Source: Parahoeflea alexandrii
GTDB lineage: Bacteria > Pseudomonadota > Alphaproteobacteria > Rhizobiales > Rhizobiaceae
Direction: 5' to 3'
NCBI RefSeq assembly: GCF_024105735.1
Contig: NZ_JAAAML010000004.1
Location: 496,001-560,000 of the forward strand
Length of the DNA stretch: 64,000 nt
The notes beneath the pieces were generated by a model that made no database searches, was not told where the DNA came from, and saw nothing but the letters and a program-made list of their open reading frames with translations. Of this stretch, positions 4,711-38,272 are shown piece after piece. How positions within the stretch are numbered: the stretch's first letter is position 1; every line of letters begins with the position of its first letter. Position numbers and translations under genes: made by a program.

Positions 4711-4901
4711 GAGCCTCTCCGTTTGGTGGCAATTGCTGACGATAGCCGGTTCACTGTCTTTCCCTTCGAGAATTGAAGGCGGGGACTGCAGGATCCGGCT
4801 GCGCCTTCATGCGCGTGAGAAACCTAGGGAGTTAAACTTGTGTGAGAATGACCTCGGGCTGCCCGACCCGATGAAAAATGCCCGTCCTCACCAAGATTTG
4901 C

Positions 4902-4939
4902 GCTGATCCGCACCAAGGGCAATTTTGGTGCGGATCAGC
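4902..4939. repeat. Perfect 14-bp inverted repeat in the gap between flagellin 1 and the fliH-like gene
   Basis: The arms at 4902-4915 (GCTGATCCGCACCA) and 4926-4939 match perfectly around a 10-nt loop. It lies in the 304-bp gap 4711-5014, downstream of the first flagellin on the minus strand, and could act as its terminator. No T-run follows on either strand, so a Rho-independent role is uncertain; mRNA 3'-end stabilisation is also possible. The rest of the gap should hold the promoter for fliH-like-motB-motC-fliK; no clear box was found. Confidence 0.6.
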
Positions 4940-5014
4940 TGATCCACCATGTCCGTTGACCGGCGGCACGGTAGAATTCGATCATCCAGCCCGCCCGTTC
5001 AGGGCCGGTCCGGC

Positions 5015-5992
5015 TTACTGCCGGAAGAGCTGAAGGATGTTTTCCGAGTTGGTGTTGGCGATCGACAGTGACTGGATGCCGAGCTGCTGCTGCGTCTGCA
5101 GGGCCTTGAGGCGTGTCGATTCCTCGTTCATGTCGGCGTCGACCAGACGGCCGATACCCTTGTCGATGGAGTCCATCAAATTGGCGACGAAGTCTTCCTG
5201 CATGGAGACGCGCTTGTTGACGGCACCGAGATTGGATGCGGCATCGGTCATCGTGGTGAGAATGGAATCCACCACCCTGATCATATCGTCAACCTGGGCA
5301 TCGGTGGTGGTCGCGGCCAGGGTGATGGCCGTACCGGATGCCTGGGTGCCGGTGGTCGAGCCCGTATCAATCAGGAAGTAATCGCGGGTTGCGGTACCGG
5401 TTGCGTTGGGATCAAGGGCGTTGGCGTCGATATCCTTGGTCAGGATGCCGAGGCTTTCGTTGGCGGCGCCGATCATGGTCAGGCTGGTGACGTTGATGTC
5501 GAGCGTGGTGATCGAGACGAGGCCGTTGACGTCGCGGTTGAAGCCGCCGACGACCGACTTGGTTCCGGCGGCTGCGGTCGAGGTGTTGTTGAGCCAGTTC
5601 TCGCCGGAGAACGATGCCGAAACGGCAATCGACTGAAGCTGGTTCTTCAGCTCTGTCAGTTCCTTGTCGATCTTGGTCTTGTCGACGCCAGGCTCGCGGG
5701 CCGCAACCAGCTTTGCCTTGATTTCGGAAACCACGTCGATGGAGCTGTTCATCGCGGTGTAGGCGATGTCCACCTTTGCCGCACCCAGTCCCAATGCATC
5801 CTTGACGGTGGACAATGCCTTGTTGTCGGACCGCATGGTCGTTGCGATCGACCAGTAGGCCGCGTTGTCACCGGCGGTTTCGACGCGGTAGCCCGAAGAA
5901 ACGCGCGCCTGCGTCATCTGCATTTCTGAATTGATTGTGCGAAGTGTCTGAAGGGCAGCCATTGCGGCTGCGTTGGTCATGATGCTGGTCAT
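5015..5992 (-). CDS. fla: Flagellin 1
   Basis: This 325-residue flagellin is a filament subunit exported by the flagellar type III apparatus. It has the conserved N-terminal D0/D1 helix (SSGYRVETAGDNAAYWSIAT) and C-terminal D1/D0 helix (TQQQLGIQSLSIANTNSENI), with a short variable middle, as in rhizobial complex filaments. The ATG at 5992 (MTSIMTN) is preferred over an upstream in-frame start because all four paralogues begin this way and GGGGGC lies at ribosome-binding distance. It is the most divergent of the four copies in N- and C-terminal details, for example QTLRTINSEMQ. By position next to motB it may correspond to flaC of Sinorhizobium. Confidence 0.96.
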   Translation of the reverse strand: MTSIMTNAAAMAALQTLRTINSEMQMTQARVSSGYRVETAGDNAAYWSIATTMRSDNKALSTVKDALGLGAAKVDIAYTAMNSSIDVVSEIKAKLVAAREPGVDKTKIDKELTELKNQLQSIAVSASFSGENWLNNTSTAAAGTKSVVGGFNRDVNGLVSITTLDINVTSLTMIGAANESLGILTKDIDANALDPNATGTATRDYFLIDTGSTTGTQASGTAITLAATTTDAQVDDMIRVVDSILTTMTDAASNLGAVNKRVSMQEDFVANLMDSIDKGIGRLVDADMNEESTRLKALQTQQQLGIQSLSIANTNSENILQLFRQ

Positions 5993-5999
5993 ATTTAAA

Positions 6000-6024
6000 T
6001 GCCCCCTATAATTGCCCAGGGACA
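6000..6024 (-). promoter_or_regulatory. Flagellin 1 leader: predicted Shine-Dalgarno-sequestering hairpin
   Basis: In the mRNA (minus strand) the sequence UGUCCC at 6024-6019 can pair with GGGGCA at 6005-6000, which contains the Shine-Dalgarno region of flagellin 1. One pair is a G·U wobble. The other three flagellin leaders carry the same UGUCCC opposite a perfectly complementary GGGACA. The block CCGGTATGTCCC is shared by all four leaders. Confidence 0.55.
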
Positions 6025-6124
6025 TACCGGCCTCAATTCCGGCTACGATGATCTTGCGTCATGCAACCGGTTTGGCACTTGCCTTGCTCGCCGGTTCATC
6101 GTTGGTAACTAATCGGTAAACGTT

Positions 6125-6144
6125 TATGGTTAACGAGGGGTTAA
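6125..6144 (-). promoter_or_regulatory. Conserved 20-nt flagellin upstream box (copy 1)
   Basis: Minus-strand sequence TTAACCCCTCGTTAACCATA, about 133 bp upstream of the flagellin 1 start. Related 20-mers occur at 7480-7499, 8715-8734 and 10018-10037. The common pattern is TTAA, six variable bases, then GT(T/A)AAC- or GTAACC-like followed by (C/T)A(T/C)A. It may be a promoter element or an activator site, for example for the flagellar regulator Rem. It overlaps a small dyad AGGGGTT-N5-AACCCCT at 6136-6154. Confidence 0.45.
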
Positions 6145-6294
6145 TTCAACCCCTAAATCTACTAATGAAAACCTGTTGCTGTTTACTTCTTGCTGTTTTA
6201 GCGAAGCTGTAACGAAGGTTTTACAACGCGTTACCGCGCCGCACAAAGTTCGATGCCAGTCGCAATCAGGGTTGGACCAGCGAGCAACGCGAAA

Positions 6295-6320
6295 GGGCCG
6301 CATCGTCCCCGATGCGGCCC
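6295..6320 (-). terminator. Terminator of flagellin 2
   Basis: The 11-bp stem GGGCCGCATCG (6295-6305) pairs with 6310-6320 around a 4-nt loop. Read on the minus strand it follows the flagellin 2 stop (6371) and is followed by TTT. A T-rich run on the other side means it could work in both directions. Confidence 0.75.
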
Positions 6321-6370
6321 TTGTTTCCTGTTGCCGTGGCCGCCCGAAAGCGGCCCACTCACGTCCGGTC

Positions 6371-7342
6371 TTAACGGAAGAGCTGCAGGATGTTTTCCGA
6401 ATTGGTGTTGGCGATCGACAATGACTGGATGCCGAGCTGCTGCTGTGTCTGCAGGGCTTTCAGGCGGGTCGATTCCTCGTTCATGTCCGCGTCAACCAGA
6501 CGGCCGATACCGCTGTCGATGGAGTCCATCAGGTTGGCGACGAAGTCTTCCTGCATGGACACGCGCTTGTTGACGGCACCGAGGTTCGAAGCCGCATCGG
6601 TCATCTGCGTCAGCATCGAGTCAACCGCGCGGATCATGTCGTCGACCTGTGCGTCGGTGGTTGTCGCAGCCAGTGTGATGGCCGTACCGGAGCCGGCGGT
6701 TGCCGCTGTACCATCGGCATCGATCAGATAGTAGTTGCGGGCGGTACCGGTGGCATTGGGGTCCAGCGCATCGGCATTGATGTCCTTGGTCAGGATGCCG
6801 AGGGCTTCGTTGCCTGCGCTGATCAGGGTGGTCGAGGTCACGTTGACCGAAAGAGTGGTGATCGAGACCAGGCCGTTCACGTCGCGGTTGAAGCCGCCGA
6901 CGATTTCCTTGGTACCGGCAGCCACGGTGCCGACATTGTTGAGCCAGTTCTCACCGGAGAACGAGGCGGATTCGGAGATCGAAACCAGCTGGTTCTTCAG
7001 CTCGGTGAGTTCCTTGTCGATCTTGGTCTTGTCGACGCCAGGCTCGCGGGCGGCAACCAGCTTTGCCTTGATTTCGGAAATAACGTCGATGGCCGAGTTC
7101 ATGCCGGTGTAGGCAACGTCGACCTTCGCGGCACCGAGTCCGAGTGCATCCTGAACGGTGGAAAGCGCCTTGTTGTCCGAACGCATCGTGGTTGCGATCG
7201 ACCAGTATGCGGCATTGTCCGCAGCAGTTTCGACACGGTAGCCGGAGGAGACGCGGTTCTGCGTCATCTCCATGTCGGAGTTGATGGAACGGAGGGTGGC
7301 GAGCGCAGCCATTGCTGCGGAGTTGGTCATGATGCTTGTCAT
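6371..7342 (-). CDS. fla: Flagellin 2
   Basis: This 323-residue flagellin begins MTSIMTNSAAMAALATL and has conserved D0/D1 ends (SSGYRVETAADNAAYWSIAT and QQLGIQSLSIANTNSENI). The short variable middle (about residues 190-225) differs from the other copies: NYYLIDADGTAATAGSGTA. Start ATG 7342 is shared in sequence context with the paralogues and preceded by GGGACA at ribosome-binding spacing. It lies between its own upstream region (7343-7600) and its own terminator, so it is probably an independent transcript. Confidence 0.97.
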   Translation of the reverse strand: MTSIMTNSAAMAALATLRSINSDMEMTQNRVSSGYRVETAADNAAYWSIATTMRSDNKALSTVQDALGLGAAKVDVAYTGMNSAIDVISEIKAKLVAAREPGVDKTKIDKELTELKNQLVSISESASFSGENWLNNVGTVAAGTKEIVGGFNRDVNGLVSITTLSVNVTSTTLISAGNEALGILTKDINADALDPNATGTARNYYLIDADGTAATAGSGTAITLAATTTDAQVDDMIRAVDSMLTQMTDAASNLGAVNKRVSMQEDFVANLMDSIDSGIGRLVDADMNEESTRLKALQTQQQLGIQSLSIANTNSENILQLFR

Positions 7343-7347
7343 TGAGG

Positions 7348-7376
7348 TGTCCCTATTGACGATCTTACGCGGGACA
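7348..7376 (-). promoter_or_regulatory. Flagellin 2 leader: predicted Shine-Dalgarno-sequestering hairpin
   Basis: In the mRNA, UGUCCC (7376-7371) can pair with GGGACA (7353-7348), which forms the Shine-Dalgarno five nt before the AUG at 7342. The loop is 17 nt. The element sits next to a CCGGTA...CCGGTATGTCCC direct repeat that is conserved upstream of the other flagellin genes. Confidence 0.6.
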
Positions 7377-7479
7377 TACCGGACTCGGTTACCGGCAACG
7401 GTGGCCAGGCATCATACCCATCGCATCCGGTTTCCTCCGATCCGCGACCCACCATTTCTTGACAACCAAAATGTCGGAT

Positions 7480-7499
7480 TATGGTTACTGAACACTTAA
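7480..7499 (-). promoter_or_regulatory. Conserved 20-nt flagellin upstream box (copy 2)
   Basis: Minus-strand TTAAGTGTTCAGTAACCATA, 138 bp upstream of the flagellin 2 start. It is part of a roughly 120-bp upstream segment that is nearly duplicated at 8615-8734 before flagellin 3. Confidence 0.5.
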
Positions 7500-7529
7500 C
7501 CGTGGTGACTTTCTTACCGGTGCGTGAAC

Positions 7530-7560
7530 AAAAAAACGCCGGGGATTTCTCCCCGGCGTT
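7530..7560 (-). terminator. Terminator of flagellin 3
   Basis: The perfect 11-bp stem AACGCCGGGGA (7535-7545) pairs with 7550-7560 around a 4-nt loop. On the minus strand it is followed by a run of seven Ts (complement of A 7530-7536). It is 41 bp past the flagellin 3 stop. The same stem recurs after flagellin 4. Confidence 0.9.
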
Positions 7561-7600
7561 GTTGTTGGGCCCAACCCTATGATCGGGTCTGAAGCGCTCC

Positions 7601-8575
7601 TTAACGGAACAGCGACAGGATGTTCTGCGAGTTGGAGTTGGCGATCGACAGCGACTGGATGCCGAGCTGCTGCTGTGTCTGCAGGGCCTTCAGGCGGGTC
7701 GATTCCTCGTTCATGTCGGCGTCGACCAGGCGGCCGATACCGGTTGTGATCGAGTCCATCAGGTTGGCGACGAAGTCTTCCTGCATGGAGACGCGCTTGT
7801 TGACGGCACCGAGGTTCGAAGCGGCATCGGTCATCTGCGTCAGCATCGAGTCGACAACACGGATCATGTCGTCAACCTGGGCGTCGGTGGTGGCTGCAGT
7901 CAGGGCAATCGCGGTACCGGAAGCCTGCGTACCGGTGGTCGAACCGGTGTCGATCAGGAAGTAGTCGCGGGTTGCGGTGCCGGTTGCGTTCGGATCCAGC
8001 GCGTTGGCATCGATATCCTTGGTCAGGATGCCGAGGCTTTCGTTGGCAGCACCGATGAGAGTGGTCGAGGTGGTGTTGACTGCCAGGGTGGTGATCGAGA
8101 CCAGGCCGTTCACGTCGCGGTTGAAGCCGCCGACGATTTCCTTGGTGCCGGCAGCAGCAGTGCCGGTGTTGTTGAGCCAGTTCTCACCGGAGAACGAAGC
8201 GGATTCGGAGATCGAAACCAGCTGGTTCTTCAGCTCTGTCAGTTCCTTGTCGATCTTGGTCTTGTCGACGCCAGGCTCGCGGGCCGCAACCAGCTTTGCC
8301 TTGATCTCGGAGACGACGTCGATGGCCGAGTTCATGCCGGTGTAGGCAACGTCGACTTTCGCGGCGCCAAGGCCGAGAGCGTCCTTGACGGTCGACATGG
8401 CCTTGTTGTCCGAACGCATGGTTGTTGCGATCGACCAATACGCGGCGTTGTCTGCAGCCGTCTCAACCCGGTAACCGGAAGAAACGCGGTTCTGCGTCAT
8501 TTCCATGTCGGAGTTGATCGAACGGAGAGTGGCGAGTGCAGACATTGCTGCGGAGTTAGTCATGATGCTTGTCAT
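7601..8575 (-). CDS. fla: Flagellin 3
   Basis: This 324-residue flagellin has conserved termini (MTSIMTNSAAMSALATL; SIANSNSQNILSLFR). Its variable middle, DYFLIDTGSTTGTQASGTA, is identical to that of flagellin 4 at protein level and over 236 bp at DNA level, which suggests gene conversion. Start ATG 8575 has GGGACA at correct spacing. It is flanked by its own upstream box and a strong intrinsic terminator. Confidence 0.97.
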   Translation of the reverse strand: MTSIMTNSAAMSALATLRSINSDMEMTQNRVSSGYRVETAADNAAYWSIATTMRSDNKAMSTVKDALGLGAAKVDVAYTGMNSAIDVVSEIKAKLVAAREPGVDKTKIDKELTELKNQLVSISESASFSGENWLNNTGTAAAGTKEIVGGFNRDVNGLVSITTLAVNTTSTTLIGAANESLGILTKDIDANALDPNATGTATRDYFLIDTGSTTGTQASGTAIALTAATTDAQVDDMIRVVDSMLTQMTDAASNLGAVNKRVSMQEDFVANLMDSITTGIGRLVDADMNEESTRLKALQTQQQLGIQSLSIANSNSQNILSLFR

Positions 8576-8580
8576 GGAAG

Positions 8581-8611
8581 TGTCCCTTTTGACAAAAAAA
8601 TACGCGGGACA
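8581..8611 (-). promoter_or_regulatory. Flagellin 3 leader: predicted Shine-Dalgarno-sequestering hairpin
   Basis: UGUCCC (8611-8606) is complementary to the Shine-Dalgarno GGGACA (8586-8581) with a 19-nt, U-rich loop (TTTTTTTGTC in the sense strand). The AUG follows five nt later at 8575. The arrangement matches those before flagellins 2 and 4. Confidence 0.6.
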
Positions 8612-8714
8612 TACCGGACTCGGTTACCGGCAACAGTGGCCAGGCATCATGCCCGTCGCTTCCGGTTTCCTCCGATCCACGACCCACCATTTCTTGACGA
8701 TCAAAATGACGGAG

Positions 8715-8734
8715 TGTGGTTACTGAAGGTTTAA
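8715..8734 (-). promoter_or_regulatory. Conserved 20-nt flagellin upstream box (copy 3)
   Basis: Minus-strand TTAAACCTTCAGTAACCACA, 140 bp upstream of flagellin 3. Spacing and sequence match copy 2 closely. Confidence 0.5.
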
Positions 8735-8772
8735 TCGGGAATTATTTATTCGACGGGATTGTTTCGGAATGG

Positions 8773-8801
8773 AAAAACGCCGGGGATTGCTCCCCGGCGT
8801 T
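8773..8801 (-). terminator. Terminator of flagellin 4
   Basis: The perfect 11-bp stem AACGCCGGGGA (8776-8786) pairs with 8791-8801 around loop TTGC, with five Ts following on the minus strand. It lies 41 bp past the flagellin 4 stop, the same distance as the identical stem after flagellin 3. Confidence 0.9.
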
Positions 8802-8841
8802 CTTTACATGCTCAAACTCGAAACTTAGTCTTAAGCAATCC

Positions 8842-9816
8842 TTAACGGAACAGCGACAGGACGTTCTGCGAGCTGGAGTTGGCGATCGACAGAGCCTGAA
8901 TACCAAGCTGCTGCTGGGTCTGCAGAGCCTTCAGGCGGGTCGATTCCTCGTTCATGTCCGCGTCGACGAGACGGCCGACACCCTTGGTGATCGAGTCCAT
9001 CAGGTTGGAGACGAAGTCGTCCTGCATGGAGACGCGCTTGTTGACGGCACCGAGGTTCGAAGCGGCATCGGTCATCTGCGTCAGCATCGAGTCGACAACA
9101 CGGATCATGTCGTCAACCTGGGCGTCGGTGGTGGCTGCAGTCAGGGCAATCGCGGTACCGGAAGCCTGCGTACCGGTGGTCGAACCGGTGTCGATCAGGA
9201 AGTAGTCGCGGGTTGCGGTGCCGGTTGCGTTCGGATCCAGCGCGTTGGCATCGATGTCCTTGGTCAGGATGCCGAGGCTTTCGCCGGCGGCACCGATCAG
9301 GGTGGTCGAGGTCACGTCGACGTCGAGCGTGGTCAGCGTGACCAGGCCAGCGGCGTCACGGTTGAAACCGGCAACGATGTTCTTGGTGCCGGCAGCAGCC
9401 GAAGTGGTGTTGTTGAGCCAGTTCTCACCGGAGAACGAAGCGGATTCGGAGATCGAAACCAGCTGGTTCTTCAGTTCTGTCAGTTCCTTGTCGATCTTGG
9501 TCTTGTCGACGCCAGGCTCGCGGGCAGCAACCAGCTTCGCCTTGATTTCGGAGACGACGTCGATGGCCGAGTTCATGCCGGTGTAGGCAACGTCAACCTT
9601 CGCAGCGCCGAGGCCGAGAGCGTCCTGAACGGTGGAGAGAGCCTTGTTGTCCGAACGCATGGTGGTTGCGATCGACCAGTAAGCGGCGTTGTCTGCAGCT
9701 GTCTCAACCCGGTAACCGGACGACACGCGGTTCTGCGTGCTTTCCATGTCGTTGTTGATCGAACGCAGGGTGGCGAGCGCAGACATAGCTGCGGAGTTGG
9801 TCATGATGCTAGTCAT
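8842..9816 (-). CDS. fla: Flagellin 4
   Basis: This 324-residue flagellin is closest to fliP, the position of flaA in Sinorhizobium. It has conserved D0/D1 ends, with small changes (RSINNDMESTQ, QALSIANSSSQNVLSLFR). The middle is identical to flagellin 3 over a 236-bp DNA block, while the segment before it (NIVAGFNRDAAGLVTLTTL) is diverged. Start ATG 9816 is preceded by GGGACA. Its upstream gap of 325 bp is the longest of the four. Confidence 0.97.
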   Translation of the reverse strand: MTSIMTNSAAMSALATLRSINNDMESTQNRVSSGYRVETAADNAAYWSIATTMRSDNKALSTVQDALGLGAAKVDVAYTGMNSAIDVVSEIKAKLVAAREPGVDKTKIDKELTELKNQLVSISESASFSGENWLNNTTSAAAGTKNIVAGFNRDAAGLVTLTTLDVDVTSTTLIGAAGESLGILTKDIDANALDPNATGTATRDYFLIDTGSTTGTQASGTAIALTAATTDAQVDDMIRVVDSMLTQMTDAASNLGAVNKRVSMQDDFVSNLMDSITKGVGRLVDADMNEESTRLKALQTQQQLGIQALSIANSSSQNVLSLFR

Positions 9817-9821
9817 GGGAT

Positions 9822-9859
9822 TGTCCCTTTAAAAAATAACGCAATACTGAGGAGGGACA
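9822..9859 (-). promoter_or_regulatory. Flagellin 4 leader: predicted Shine-Dalgarno-sequestering hairpin
   Basis: UGUCCC (9859-9854) can pair with GGGACA (9827-9822), the Shine-Dalgarno before AUG 9816. The loop is 26 nt and A/U-rich. A CCGGTA direct repeat next to UGUCCC is kept, although the surrounding leader has diverged from flagellins 2 and 3. Confidence 0.6.
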
Positions 9860-9971
9860 TACCGGGCTTATGTTTTTACCGGTCATGCGGTTCGGCATCA
9901 TGCCTGTCGGAACCCCTTGACTTCGCAAGAGTGTTCCTCCCCGTCATGTTGGCACCATAATCCCAGTTGGC

Positions 9972-9996
9972 GCTTTCGAATTGATTAATCGAAAGC
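9972..9996. promoter_or_regulatory. Dyad GCTTTCGA-N9-TCGAAAGC upstream of flagellin 4
   Basis: A perfect 8-bp inverted repeat with a 9-bp A/T spacer, 156-180 bp upstream of the flagellin 4 start and downstream of fliP. No T-run follows on the minus strand, so it looks more like a protein-binding dyad than a fliP terminator. Confidence 0.35.
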
Positions 9997-10017
9997 CAAA
10001 TAAGCGAGTAAATTCAA

Positions 10018-10037
10018 TATAGTTAACCGTCACTTAA
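10018..10037 (-). promoter_or_regulatory. Conserved 20-nt flagellin upstream box (copy 4)
   Basis: Minus-strand TTAAGTGACGGTTAACTATA, 202 bp upstream of flagellin 4, so further away than in the other three genes. It lies in an A/T-rich stretch with a second GTTAACCATAA-like repeat at about 10038-10048. The 325-bp gap 9817-10141 otherwise shows no gene. Confidence 0.4.
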
Positions 10038-10141
10038 GTTAACCATAACAATGCTTGAGATACCGCCACACCGGGCCGGAGAGCAGCATCAAGCGGGCGC
10101 CGGAATCAGGTCCGCGCACGGCTGCTCAGGCGTAAACCTGT

Positions 10142-10879
10142 TTACACAAAGGAGCGAACGAGGCTTCCGACAAGCAGGTTCCAGCCGTCGATGAGGATGA
10201 AGAAAAGGATCTTGAACGGCAGCGAGATCGCCGTCGGCGGCAGCATCATCATGCCCATGGACATGGTGATGGTGGCGACCACCAGATCGATCACGAGAAA
10301 CGGCAGGACGACAAGAAATCCGATCTCGAAGCCGCGCCTGATCTCAGAGATCATGAAGGCGGGGACCAGAACGCGCATGTCGATCTTGCCTTCCGTTTCG
10401 GTCGTCTGGCCGCGCTCGGTGGCAATGTCGATGAATAGGTTGAGATCCTTGGGACGGGTGTTGACCAGCATGAACTCGCGAAACGGGTCGGCGATGAGCT
10501 GGATGGCCTCCTCTTCGCTGACCTGGTTCTCGAGAAGCGGGCTCACGCCCCGCTCCCAGGCGCGATCAAATGTCGGGGCCATGACATAGAAGGTCATGAA
10601 CAGGGACAGGCTGACCAGAATCATGTTGGCCGGCGTCGTGGCCAGCCCCATGCCGGCGCGCAGAATGGCGAAGGCGATGATGAACCGCGGAAAGCTGGTC
10701 ACCATGATGAGGATGCCGGGCGCCACTGACAGAACGGTCAGCAGTCCGAAGGTACGGATGATCCAGCTTGCAACGGATCCGTCAACCGGGGCCTGGAGCA
10801 GATTGGGATCCAGAACCTGGCCGTGCGCCGCCGTTGCAATCGCCATCATGGCTGCAAAGGCTGATAGAAATCGAATCAT
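10142..10879 (-). CDS. fliP: Flagellar export gate protein FliP
   Basis: FliP forms the core of the flagellar type III export gate in the inner membrane with FliQ and FliR. The 245-residue product has a cleavable signal peptide (ending near AAHGQ) and the FliP signatures PRFIIAFAILRAGMG and MRVLVPAFMISEIRRGFEIGF. Four hydrophobic segments are visible. Its ATG overlaps the fliL stop (ATGA). It is the last gene of the flgB-to-fliP run. fliQ, fliR and flhA are not in the window. Confidence 0.97.
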   Translation of the reverse strand: MIRFLSAFAAMMAIATAAHGQVLDPNLLQAPVDGSVASWIIRTFGLLTVLSVAPGILIMVTSFPRFIIAFAILRAGMGLATTPANMILVSLSLFMTFYVMAPTFDRAWERGVSPLLENQVSEEEAIQLIADPFREFMLVNTRPKDLNLFIDIATERGQTTETEGKIDMRVLVPAFMISEIRRGFEIGFLVVLPFLVIDLVVATITMSMGMMMLPPTAISLPFKILFFILIDGWNLLVGSLVRSFV

Positions 10880-35525: not shown

Positions 35526-35891
35526 TCAGGCGGTTACACGCTCAATGGCTGCGATCAGCTTGGATGGGTCAAAAGGCTTGACAATCCAACCGGTTGCTCC
35601 TGCTTCACGAGCGCGGTTCTTCTTTTCCGCGTCGCTTTCCGTGGTCAAGACCAAGATCGGAATTGCCCGGTAACGGTCGTTCTGCCGTACGCCTTCGATA
35701 AAACCGAAACCATCAAGACGCGGCATGTTGATGTCGGTGACGATGACATCCGGGTTGGATTCCTCGAGTACCTCGAGACCTTCAACACCATCTTCCGCCT
35801 GCACAATGTCAAAGCCTGCATTGTTCAGGGTCACCAGCAACATGTTGCGGATGGTTCGCGAGTCGTCGACCGTGAGAACCTTCTTTTTCAT
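35526..35891 (-). CDS. cheY1: Chemotaxis response regulator CheY1
   Basis: A 121-residue single receiver domain: Asp9/Asp10, phosphorylation site Asp53 (VIVTDINMP), Thr/Ser in LTTES and Lys in IVKPFDPSK. In rhizobia CheY1 acts mainly as a phosphate sink for CheY2-P. The start overlaps the cheS stop by four bases, fitting the reported CheS-CheA-CheY1 partnership. Confidence 0.95.
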   Translation of the reverse strand: MKKKVLTVDDSRTIRNMLLVTLNNAGFDIVQAEDGVEGLEVLEESNPDVIVTDINMPRLDGFGFIEGVRQNDRYRAIPILVLTTESDAEKKNRAREAGATGWIVKPFDPSKLIAAIERVTA

Positions 35892-36187
35892 TTCAGCATC
35901 TCCTTTGGAAGCAGGGCTTCATCCGAAATTCCTAGTAATTGCAGCGTCTTGACGAAGACTTCCGAGGCCGGTTCGACCTTGAAGTGCTGGTCTTCGGCAC
36001 GCCAGCTCTTTGCCGCTGCAAGCAGCACCTGGATGCACTGGGCGCCGACGCGGTTGACGTCGGACGCGTCGATATCGATGTCCTCACCCTTGTGTGCGAG
36101 CACCTGTTCGTGCAGCCGGCTGGCTGCGTTGAGGTCGAGGACCTCAGGCAGTTTCAAAACTTTCGGTGATGTACCGTCAGACGACAT
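35888..36187 (-). CDS. cheS: STAS-domain chemotaxis protein CheS
   Basis: CheS is a small STAS-domain protein which in Sinorhizobium binds CheA and speeds CheY1 dephosphorylation. The 99-residue product shows the STAS pattern (LKLPEVLDLNAASRLHEQVL, DIDASDVNRVGAQCIQVLLA). The ATG at 36187 has GAGGA at good spacing; an in-frame ATG at 36241 would add 18 residues. It lies between icpA and cheY1. Confidence 0.88.
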   Translation of the reverse strand: MSSDGTSPKVLKLPEVLDLNAASRLHEQVLAHKGEDIDIDASDVNRVGAQCIQVLLAAAKSWRAEDQHFKVEPASEVFVKTLQLLGISDEALLPKEMLK

Positions 36188-36250
36188 GTCGACTATCCTC
36201 GCTGGTGAATGGGCGTGCGCTGTTGGACGCGATCTGTTCATGAATCAGGC

Positions 36251-37852
36251 TCATCGCGCGAGCCTCCGCTGTGACGGCTGGTCATTCTCGGCCGGGCCGG
36301 CTGTCCGCTGGGCGGACAGATCGATGCTCTGGAAACCGGCATGACGCTCCTGGCGGTGCCGCCGGATCTGCTCTCCAAGTTCGGAAATGACAAGTTTGAG
36401 GTCGGCGCCCTTCTCGGCCGCGCCGACAAAACGCGCATTGCCGGACCCGATCAGACCGGTGATCTCGCCGAGAGAAGCGGCCGAACCGCCAATGTGACCG
36501 GCCTCCGCCTGTGCCTGGGTGCCAACGCCTGCAACAGCTTCCGAAATGCCGCCGACCTGCTCAACCAGTCCGGAAATGGCAGAACGGGTCTGGTCAACCA
36601 GTTCGACGCCACGGCCGACATGGGATTTTGCGTCGGACACCAGTTCCTTGATTTCATTGGCAGCACCGGCAGATCTCTGCGCGAGTGCACGTACTTCGGA
36701 GGCAACCACGGCAAAGCCTCGGCCGGCATCACCGGCCCGTGCCGCCTCGATGCCGGCATTGAGCGCCAGCAAGTTGGTCTGAAAAGCGATTTCCTCGATC
36801 ACCGAGATGATCTTGCCGATCTGTTCGGCGGAATTCTCGACACCCGCCATGGCGTCGATAGCATCAGCAACCACACGGTCGCCGGCTTCTGCACTCTTGC
36901 GGGCCTGGGAAATCAGGATTTCGGCTTTCAGGGCGATCTCGGCGGTTTGTTTAATTCGTCCGGCGATCTCGGAGAGGGTGTCGTGCTCTTCGCTGACCGA
37001 GGCACCCTGGCGTTCGATCTCGAGACGAACAGCCTCGATGTCGTCGCTCAACCTTACGGCAAGCTGCTCTGCTTCGGCGAGGCTCGCGGCGGATCCGGTC
37101 ACAAGATCCTCAAGCCGGCTGACGGCGCGATTGAAATTGTCGGCAGCCTGCTGGTGCTGTTCTATCTCCAGAGGGGCGACGCGCACCGAAAGATCGCCTT
37201 CGGCGAGGCGTGCAAGTGCTGCTCCGAGCGTGGATTCGACAAGGCTACGCTCGTTTGCGATGTCCGTCTCGCGCTGCCGGGCAGATGAGCGTGTTTGCTC
37301 GCCAAGCCGGTGGGTTACCTGCACATCGATATCGATGAGGGCTGCCTTGACGACATCGACGAGACGATCGGCCAGAAGGTTGCGCTCGGACTGGCGCGAA
37401 AAGCTCTTGAACAGGCCGGTACGGCTTTCATCGACAAGCCGGCGGATCACCCGTTCCAGGACCAGGGCGTGGCCGCCGATCGACCAGCCTGCATCCAGGC
37501 CGATGCGCTGGCGCACCTCGCCCAGAATAACTGACCTGTCCGCATACAAACCATCGAAACGGCCATCGGCGAGGATCGACCAGTGGGCCACTTCGAGTTC
37601 CTCGAGCCGGTCGATCTGGCGGGGGGATGAGAAAAGCGAAGCGATTTCAGGTGTGTTCTGGAGCCGTTCAAAGAATGCGGAAAGGGCGACGCGGGCCTCT
37701 GCCTCGATCATCGGCCGGATTTCGCGCAGGCGATCACCGCTCTGCTGATCAAGCCGGGTCAGCGCAATCCGCGCGCGCAGGCCGTCAGCAGCCGCTGCAT
37801 CCCTCACCCTTGCTTGAACCTGCCCCACGCGTTTAACCCCAAAATCCGGCAT
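36251..37852 (-). CDS. icpA: Soluble globin-coupled chemoreceptor (IcpA-like)
   Basis: This is the first gene of the che operon: a 533-residue cytoplasmic methyl-accepting protein with no transmembrane helix. An N-terminal protoglobin-type sensor (about 30-185; [36 protein letters not shown]) is followed by a signalling domain with hairpin tip [20 protein letters not shown]. In globin-coupled sensors the proximal heme His comes two residues before RIGL; here that segment reads GEVRQRIGL, with Arg instead. Heme binding by the usual ligand is therefore doubtful. No C-terminal CheR-tethering pentapeptide is seen. The name follows the Sinorhizobium gene in the same place. Confidence 0.9.
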
Positions 37853-38272
37853 GCCGCCGAAAACATCAAATCGGGCTTTTTTGCTGCGTTTCCGGTGTCA
37901 CAGACGCCGCTGTCCCTGTCACACTCGTGACAGTACACAGCCGGTGTCTTGGATACCGTGCGCCGCTTGGCCCATGAGAAACTGGAAATCCGGATCTGAC
38001 CGGAACCTTCGAGCGGCTTCATGCCTTTGTGGGAAGCGGTGCCATCGCACCAACCACAATCCGTAGGTTAGATTGTTTTTTACGTATTAATCCTTGCCCG
38101 AAGGTTAACGCCGTTTACCAGTGTTAATCATGTTTTGCTCCAATTCCGTTTCGGACTTGACGAACTCGGGTCCGCCGGAGGCCACACTTGTTGACCTGTT
38201 GCAAGCTTCGGGCAAGTTGCAGCGGATAGTTACTGTCCTGTCGATGACAATGATGTCAGTTGGGAACGAGCA
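37853..38272. other. Upstream region of the chemotaxis operon
   Basis: The gap of about 420 bp on the minus-strand side of icpA shows no supported gene. It contains the dyad at 37916-37933, two CCGGTGTC repeats at about 37892 and 37941, and an A/T-rich stretch at 38070-38130 that may hold promoters. Confidence 0.5.
37916..37933. promoter_or_regulatory. 18-bp dyad upstream of icpA, candidate operator
   Basis: CTGTCAC (37916-37922) and GTGACAG (37927-37933) form a perfect 7-bp inverted repeat with a 4-bp spacer, 64-81 bp upstream of the icpA start. Size and symmetry suit a LuxR-type dimer such as VisN/VisR; this assignment is only a guess. Confidence 0.4.

Follow-up and report, generated by a model that had tools for sequence, protein, structure and literature searches.

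What holds back flagellin synthesis at the level of the mRNA is the question raised by a 64,000-nucleotide stretch of the Parahoeflea alexandrii genome (contig NZ_JAAAML010000004.1, positions 496,001 to 560,000; here called the window), in which four flagellin genes form a tandem array on the minus strand. A preliminary description had claimed that a conserved leader hairpin hides the Shine-Dalgarno (SD) sequence of all four mRNAs. Analysis of the leaders showed that this hairpin, P5, is the tail of a larger branched leader RNA, which, judging from the covariation of its sequences, is very probably real. As for its role, we regard it as an even call whether it is a modular regulatory RNA at the 5′ end of the four flagellin mRNAs, in which a junction would serve as a tag, read most likely by FlbT, and P5 would mask the SD.

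The pairing itself was found on the mRNA strand in all four leaders, with the SD covered in each. The block CCGGTATGTCCC, said to stand in every flagellin leader, has exactly four exact copies in the window, all on the minus strand (6019-6030, 7371-7382, 8606-8617, and 9854-9865), and each lies inside the leader of a flagellin open reading frame (ORF). When two mismatches were allowed, four extra matches appeared outside the flagellin leaders, and the total of eight was not unusual (13 of 100 shuffles). The complementarity of its UGUCCC to the hexamer GGGACA at 7353-7348, 8586-8581, and 9827-9822, with loops of 17, 19, and 26 nucleotides (nt), was correct to the base. Likewise, the GGGGCA of flagellin 1 (6005-6000) is paired through one U·G, as had been described, and its loop is 13 nt long.

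To place the hairpin in its leader, flagellin leaders were picked by the protein N terminus only in the window and in 75 loci from Hoeflea, Rhizobium, Sinorhizobium, and relatives, which gave 178 starts (173 distinct). Of these leaders, 157 were kept with at least 110 nt upstream, and 141 were left after removal of near duplicates (Rhizobiaceae and close kin). A first covariance model (R1) was built from a 14-sequence seed and a second (R2) from 150 flagellin leaders. Two further alignments were used: A3, the best 150 of 173 matches to R1, and A4, 68 matches from a sample of the order, some of them from the same family. An alignment of the 157 leaders by MAFFT showed near-invariant GCATGA.GC, CCGG, CCGG, and ATGT blocks and a conserved ccg.cgtt before the first CCGG, which is the 3′ strand of an outer stem, P1. 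In the resulting model, P1 (7 to 11 bp) encloses the variable hairpin P2 and the mini-hairpin P3 (NGC-AUGAN-GCN) and is followed by hairpin P4 (CCGG/CCGG) and then by P5. All 157 leaders have the same AUGA in the P3 loop, and the A that separates P4 from P5 was invariant in A3. The hairpin first described was therefore correct in its pairing and incomplete in its extent, as the CCGG belongs to the separate hairpin P4 and the three-way junction upstream had gone unmentioned.

A covariance model of rhizobial flagellin leaders had been suggested as a check, and it revealed covariation, mainly in P1 and P2. In the 14-sequence seed, two-sided changes were seen at 4 of 8 pairs in P1, 5 of 5 in P2, 2 of 3 in P3, 0 of 5 in P4, and 0 of 6 in P5; among 150 leaders aligned to the first model, the counts were 8 of 8, 5 of 5, 2 of 3, 1 of 5, and 4 of 6, respectively. 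Because a fitted alignment leans to its own structure, the helices were retested on a structure-blind alignment of the 141 leaders (mean identity 49%). There, P1 paired in 84.8% of cells and showed 170 both-side changes compared to a maximum of 79 in 300 shuffles, and P2 showed 200 compared to a shuffle maximum of 122, so that both helices beat all 300 shuffles and every slide. P4 showed 34 both-side changes compared to a shuffle maximum of 20. To allow for relatedness, changes were also placed by parsimony on a tree of the flagellin proteins. Compensatory double events numbered 41 for P1 (slides, 1 to 7; random partners, mean 3.6 and maximum 13), 38 for P2 (slides, 0 to 16; random partners, mean 4.9 and maximum 19), 8 for P3 (slides, 0 to 2), and 7 for P4 (slides, 0 to 1). 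Finally, the 68 matches of A4 paired in 94.2% of cells compared to 34 to 49% when slid.

P5 is the least covarying helix of the leader. Its cells were standard pairs in 98.4% of cases in A3, and it was paired in 94.9% of cells in A4, so that the pairing is kept across the order sample; in both alignments, the overall pairing exceeded 1,000 of 1,000 shuffles, by a small margin. In A4, each of the six P5 pairs had two-sided changes, although only one to three sequences carried them at a given pair (UGUUCC/GGAACA and UGUCCU/AGGACA are examples). What supports P5, as read from the aligned sequences, is that its two arms hardly vary, the CA that follows the SD included, and that its pairing tolerates G·U. 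In ViennaRNA predictions for the four window leaders, the mean pair probability of P5 was 0.77 to 0.96, and the unpaired probability of its 3′ arm was 0.04 to 0.07.

Energy-based folding of whole leaders gave a more varied picture. The minimum free energy fold was P1 to P5 for flagellin 2 and P1 to P5 in outline, with a bulge, for flagellin 4. The flagellin 1 leader kept P5 and had a competing upstream fold, and the flagellin 3 leader alone folded differently throughout, with even P5 replaced; its P5 had a mean pair probability of 0.89 when 30 nt of coding sequence was added. Whole leaders did not fold decisively better than shuffles (z of −0.75 to −2.40 for the four), and folding energy alone was uninformative. 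When the P1 helix was searched for loosely, with no limits on position, real leaders stood out only modestly from permuted ones, and this is why the aligned tests were used.

Variants of the SD region were also seen. In genus g46 (L169, L173, L177, and L178), UGUCCC is lost, and by eye the SD lies in a small hairpin of its own, such as GGUACGAGUACC, ending at the AUG; P5 appears to have been replaced there by this small hairpin. In L069, L089, L094, L106, and similar flaA-type leaders, the P2 loop is often CAGGGCAA, which resembles the SD arm AGGGGCA, and pairing of UGUCC with either the P2 loop or the SD arm is possible, as a pseudoknot or a switch. Several leaders have a second, proximal CUGUC shortly 5′ of AAGGGGCAG, with which a competing small hairpin over the SD could form.

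The position of the promoter bears on whether these sequences are in the mRNA. Upstream of each leader is TTAA-N7-TTAAC or a one-mismatch form of it (Table 1), which we take to be a CtrA-type motif. With up to one mismatch and within 130 nt upstream, the box was found in 136 of 149 A3 leaders compared to 2 of 149 shuffled ones, and its end lay 24 to 29 nt before P1 in 122 of 149 A3 placements. Because of this spacing, transcription likely starts just before P1, which would put the element at the 5′ end of the mRNA. The preliminary description had allowed that UGUCCC might be left out of the mRNA by a start downstream of it; such a start is unlikely, given that a promoter-like box precedes the entire element. 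CtrA motifs have been placed near the start sites of Sinorhizobium meliloti flaA, flaC, and flaD in the available excerpt of one study (PMC3616915). An extra hairpin, GCTTTCG/CGAAAGC, lies at 9972-9996 (minus strand), between the box of flagellin 4 and P1.

The element is closely tied to flagellin genes. R2 gave four strong matches in the 4.9-Mb genome, all of them the flagellin leaders, with the next at 14.9 bits (E = 0.29), and a flagellin ORF follows directly after each of the 150 matches in A3. In the order sample, 85 of 249 genomes had an R2 match at an E value of ≤0.1, many of the weakest of which are probably due to chance. Of the 29 best loci in this sample, 28 precede flagellins and the remaining one (L143) was not assessable. 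Among 40 weaker matches, 25 precede flagellins, as recognized by the N terminus; L165, L184, and L189 precede chemoreceptors (by Pfam), and L200 lies before the chemoreceptor of L241 (genome G061). The other 11 were of other kinds or unresolved: L163 (no Pfam family), L178 (frame unsettled), and L190 and L192 to L199, which are not flagellin and had E values of 2.6e-5 to 2e-3. In a class sample of 289 genomes, no convincing R2 match was found outside the order, in a search that would miss a divergent homologue; the matches in 15 genomes outside the order were weak (best, 26.3 bits), with no flagellin start recognized downstream (L147 to L162).

The chemoreceptor sites form a second class. The P3-P4 pattern was found in the window in three flagellin leaders and at 37990-38024 on the minus strand, compared to 0.05 expected in all; it is not specific alone, with 14 places genome-wide. 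The additional site belongs to an element with P1 to P4 and without P5, and the first gene after it encodes a chemoreceptor (Table 1). Its R2 E value comes from a search of 101,604 bases (L227), and this site is absent from the 15 places that the R2 search of the whole genome listed. Homologous chemoreceptor leaders in other Rhizobiaceae carried the motif in 14 of the 23 loci scanned, the window locus included, and nine were without it, one of which (L244) had an R2 match at an E value of 4e-4. R2, trained on flagellin leaders only, found all 14 motif-bearing leaders (E ≤ 0.0018), and UGUCCC followed P4 in none of the 14. Therefore, the junction is common to flagellin and chemoreceptor mRNAs, whereas P5 is linked to flagellin. 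The CtrA-type box, with up to one mismatch, was present in 1 of the 14 chemoreceptor leaders.

Table 1. Coordinates of the flagellin array, its leader elements and promoter-like boxes, the chemoreceptor form, and the FlbT locus (window positions unless stated otherwise)
Feature	Position	Strand	Details
Flagellin 1 coding sequence, 325 aa from ATG at 5992	5015..5992	-	Flagellin_N, E = 2.2e-32
Flagellin 2 coding sequence, 323 aa	6371..7342	-	Close paralogue of flagellins 1 and 4
Flagellin 3 coding sequence, 324 aa	7601..8575	-	Close paralogue of flagellins 1 and 4
Flagellin 4 coding sequence, 324 aa	8842..9816	-	Flagellin_N, E = 1.3e-31
Flagellin 1 leader (ATG 5992)	5992..6106	-	P1 6102-6096/6051-6045; P2 6095-6091/6070-6066; P3 TGC-AUGAC-GCA 6065-6055; P4 6042-6039/6030-6027; P5 6024-6019/6005-6000 (SD); read from sequence; R1 49.8 bits, R2 70 bits
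Flagellin 2 leader (ATG 7342)	7343..7459	-	P1 7456-7449/7404-7397; P2 7448-7444/7424-7420; P3 7418-7408; P4 7396-7392/7382-7378; P5 7376-7371/7353-7348 (SD); R1 113.6 bits (leader in seed), R2 84.4 bits
Flagellin 3 leader (ATG 8575)	8576..8694	-	P1 8691-8684/8639-8632; P2 8683-8679/8659-8655; P3 8653-8643; P4 8631-8627/8617-8613; P5 8611-8606/8586-8581 (SD); all 27 model pairs can form; R2 92.9 bits
Flagellin 4 leader (ATG 9816)	9817..9951	-	P1 9948-9941 (bulged A9944)/9890-9884; P2 9937-9933/9913-9909; P3 9904-9894; P4 9883-9879/9865-9861; P5 9859-9854/9827-9822 (SD); R1 49.2 bits, R2 66 bits
CtrA-type box of flagellin 1, TTAA-N7-TTAAC	6129..6144	-	Exact; 26 nt before P1
CtrA-type box of flagellin 2, TTAA-N7-GTAAC	7484..7499	-	1 mismatch; 27 nt before P1
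CtrA-type box of flagellin 3, TTAA-N7-GTAAC	8719..8734	-	1 mismatch; 27 nt before P1
CtrA-type box of flagellin 4, TTAA-N7-TTAAC	10022..10037	-	Exact; about 73 nt from P1, farther than the other three
Second form, P1-P4 without P5, upstream of chemoreceptor gene	37978..38071	-	P3-P4 pattern match 37990-38024; R2 19.1 bits, E = 3e-4
Chemoreceptor ORF (Protoglobin and MCPsignal), first gene after the 37978..38071 leader	36251..37852	-	PF00015, E = 3.5e-41; PF11563, E = 2e-21
STAS-domain ORF, after the chemoreceptor	35888..36241	-	PF13466, E = 2.9e-15
FlbT locus of this genome	Contig positions 489622-489993		

The Pfam check of the flagellins was made on two of the four window ORFs (flagellins 1 and 4), and the closest database relatives of flagellin 4 are from Hoeflea species. 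A stretch of 236 bases is the same in flagellins 3 and 4 (7779-8014 and 9020-9255, minus strand), which suggests gene conversion between tandem copies. Terminator-like hairpins (CGCCGGGG..CCCCGGCG followed by T runs) lie at 7531-7560 and 8771-8800 on the minus strand, between flagellins 3 and 2 and flagellins 4 and 3, and because of these, the leaders of the flagellins they separate are probably on separate transcripts.

What might read such an element is suggested by the genes that accompany it. FlbT (PF07378, E = 3.3e-43) and FlaF (PF07309, E = 6.1e-33) are encoded ~6 kb left of the window start. FlbT occurs in the order sample in two forms, long and short, and among the 150 matches listed, the element lay within 40 kb of 26 of 37 long-form genes compared to 3 of 113 short-form genes, as judged against a list of 53 genomes with stronger element matches. 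In a tree of 55 FlbT proteins, a chosen sample, all 27 element-linked proteins, including three of the short form, fell into one clade (support, 0.735), which also holds four from genomes with the element on another contig. The other clade (support, 1.0) contains the second FlbT copy of each of five genomes in which both kinds occur. The leader and one FlbT subfamily are thus co-inherited by these comparisons, also inside genomes with two FlbT genes. The two subfamilies are ~17 to 31% identical to each other, and both are present in at least five genomes. No match to the CsrA family was found in 21 of 21 genomes searched, this genome included. Together, the presence of the genes, the lack of a CsrA match, and the co-inheritance give circumstantial support to an action of FlbT/FlaF on the leader. 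A by-eye resemblance of the short-form FlbT to CsrA was not borne out, as there was no CsrA match in PDB sequences or Pfam; 7 of 18 members of this form gave weak Sm_like matches (best E, 0.016).

These results can be put together as a mechanism with two modules. Module 1 would be the three-way junction (P1 around P2 and P3, with GC-AUGAN-GC) plus hairpin P4, and module 2 would be P5, with UGUCCC laid over the SD (GGGACA or GGGGCA). Because module 1 stands alone before chemoreceptor genes, it has the look of a tag common to late (class III) motility mRNAs. A protein probably recognizes it, and the likeliest one is FlbT, together with FlaF; FlbT is an alphaproteobacterial factor that reportedly acts on the 5′ leaders of flagellins. 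P5 would keep the SD closed by default and flagellin translation low, and a regulator bound to module 1 may then alter the opening of P5 or the stability of the mRNA when the hook can receive filament subunits. Insertions in flbT and flaF turned up in an Agrobacterium fabrum screen for loss of motility, according to the portion of that report available (PMC9812332), and FlbT is reported as an activator in Brucella in excerpts of a 2015 review (PMC4347634); both suggest that FlbT would act positively in this clade.

Several observations weigh against this reading. On the flagellin tree (126 of the 141 leaders usable), P5 showed 0 compensatory double, 36 pair-preserving single, and 10 breaking changes, and leaders with a 5′ arm other than UGUCCC were paired no more often than after shuffling of the partners (0.94 versus 0.97 in A3 and 0.89 versus 0.89 in A4). 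The lack of compensatory changes is because both arms are nearly invariant. Conservation of the pairing had been offered as a sign of a real structure, and this holds for the leader, with covariation in P1 and P2 and less in P3 and P4, but not for P5 within Rhizobiaceae and kin, where compensatory double changes are missing. P3 only tied the shuffle maximum in the structure-blind alignment (28 and 28 cells). Thermodynamic prediction made P1 likely in some leaders only: its mean pair probability was 0.29 in A3 and, for the four leaders of the window extended by 30 nt of coding sequence, 0.00 to 0.01. The CtrA-type box, with up to one mismatch, was weaker outside the family, in 16 of 68 A4 leaders. 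For four FlbT proteins of the element-linked clade, the source genome has no confident element (G232, G136, G281, and G195). Furthermore, although the co-inheritance fits a cognate FlbT-leader pair, it would be just as expected of two parts that a single flagellar system carries along. The reported signs of the effect also differ: the same review excerpts give FlbT as a repressor in Caulobacter, where its binding is said to promote degradation of flagellin mRNA, and as an activator in Brucella.

Other explanations of the leader were considered. It may be a structured stability element for very abundant late motility mRNAs, with P5 a part of the fold that ribosomes open without a dedicated regulator. 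The junction without P5 before chemoreceptor genes agrees with this, since SD masking cannot then be the sole role, and the mRNA degradation attributed to Caulobacter FlbT in the review excerpts (PMC4347634) makes stability a plausible output; we nevertheless consider this explanation rather unlikely, as the strong conservation of UGUCCC and of the CA just 3′ of the SD would be difficult to account for if neither the covering of the SD nor a specific binding site were under selection. A small RNA, or an RNA-binding protein other than FlbT, could instead act through the AUGA of the P3 loop or the conserved CCGGNAUGUCCC. The invariance of this AUGA and of the A between P4 and P5, both unpaired, would suit such a partner. 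No candidate was found, in work that included no genome-wide search for one, and the co-inheritance with one FlbT subfamily favors FlbT, which makes such a partner quite unlikely. For a ligand-binding riboswitch or an RNA thermometer controlling flagellin translation, a multi-helix junction with an SD-masking helix is the architecture generally expected, but there is no Rfam match, the conserved single-stranded core is small, and the genes it precedes, where they were recognized, are those of late motility. We consider this improbable.

Two further explanations take the conserved blocks not to act as a folded RNA. That they are DNA sites for transcription (CtrA, Rem, or sigma factors), with the hairpins incidental, would agree with the conserved box upstream and with the S. 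meliloti motifs of the excerpt cited above (PMC3616915). However, the box lies upstream of the element, P5 adjoins the AUG, and on the tree the arms of P1 and P2 vary freely yet keep pairing, including G·U, which is the behavior of RNA and not of DNA. Conservation of a promoter only was set aside on the grounds of the box position and the P1 and P2 covariation, and DNA sites in general are very improbable. The nearly invariant AUG in CCGGNAUGUCCC might also start a short upstream frame coupled to flagellin, and in flagellins 2 and 4 this frame does end across the flagellin AUG. Among 151 leaders, however, this AUG falls at random into the three frames set by the flagellin AUG (54, 49, and 48), six more leaders have no AUG, and 9 of 14 chemoreceptor leaders have lost it, so that an upstream frame is hardly credible. 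Of the readings considered, the modular RNA read by FlbT is the one we prefer.

Among known RNA families, none in Rfam 15 matches the element. RF01736 (flg-Rhizobiales) is similar in being a multi-hairpin RNA of Rhizobiales upstream of flagellar genes, but it has a different consensus (GGGA loops), and its best matches, L002 to L004, which are below the gathering score (55 bits), precede flgF-like ORFs (by eye) and not flagellins. RF01736 had no match in the window at the gathering threshold, none up to an E value of 5 in 4900-10200, and none up to an E value of 10 in this genome, and 0 of 61 genomes passed the cutoff; a known Rfam family was therefore rejected as the identity of the element. 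In Bacillus and Campylobacter, flagellin synthesis is held back at the leader by CsrA-FliW. The hold-back logic is alike, but CsrA control was set aside here since CsrA was unmatched in the genomes searched. The alphaproteobacterial leaders of PMC1273637 (serC, speF, suhB, ybhL, and metA) were found in the same class by the same discovery logic, and words beginning with flag- or motil- are absent from the portion of that text available.

The FlbT-regulated leaders of Caulobacter fljK and Brucella fliC, as far as their excerpted accounts go, are the closest in kind. They too are 5′ leaders of flagellin mRNAs under posttranscriptional late-gene control, and FlbT and FlaF are encoded here as well; a structured 5′ leader on flagellin mRNAs is what was found here by computation from DNA. 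They differ in that R2, which would miss a divergent homologue, had no convincing match outside the order in the class sample and in that the element-linked FlbT belongs to a divergent subfamily. No description of this leader structure was found in full-text searches of an open-licence library. The element would belong with the protein-responsive, SD-masking mRNA leaders.

The presence of the junction before the chemoreceptor operon too suggests that the late motility genes of rhizobia and related bacteria share a posttranscriptional switch. More broadly, and with somewhat less than even confidence, these leaders may be an RNA class across Hyphomicrobiales, with a junction tag on flagellin and chemoreceptor mRNAs read by a co-evolved FlbT subfamily and a plug-in SD hairpin on the flagellins only, so that one RNA-protein pair would set both the timing and the relative output for the proteins of the filament and of chemotaxis. 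The holding back of flagellin until the hook is built has been attributed to FlbT and FlaF, and the FlbT mechanism is called unresolved in the excerpts of the 2015 review (PMC4347634). This small RNA structure, which covaries, has a masked ribosome site, and occurs four times here as well as across rhizobia, would offer a defined substrate for studying binding, the sign of the effect, and the coupling to assembly, and the chemoreceptor form without the SD-masking hairpin would provide a natural comparison.

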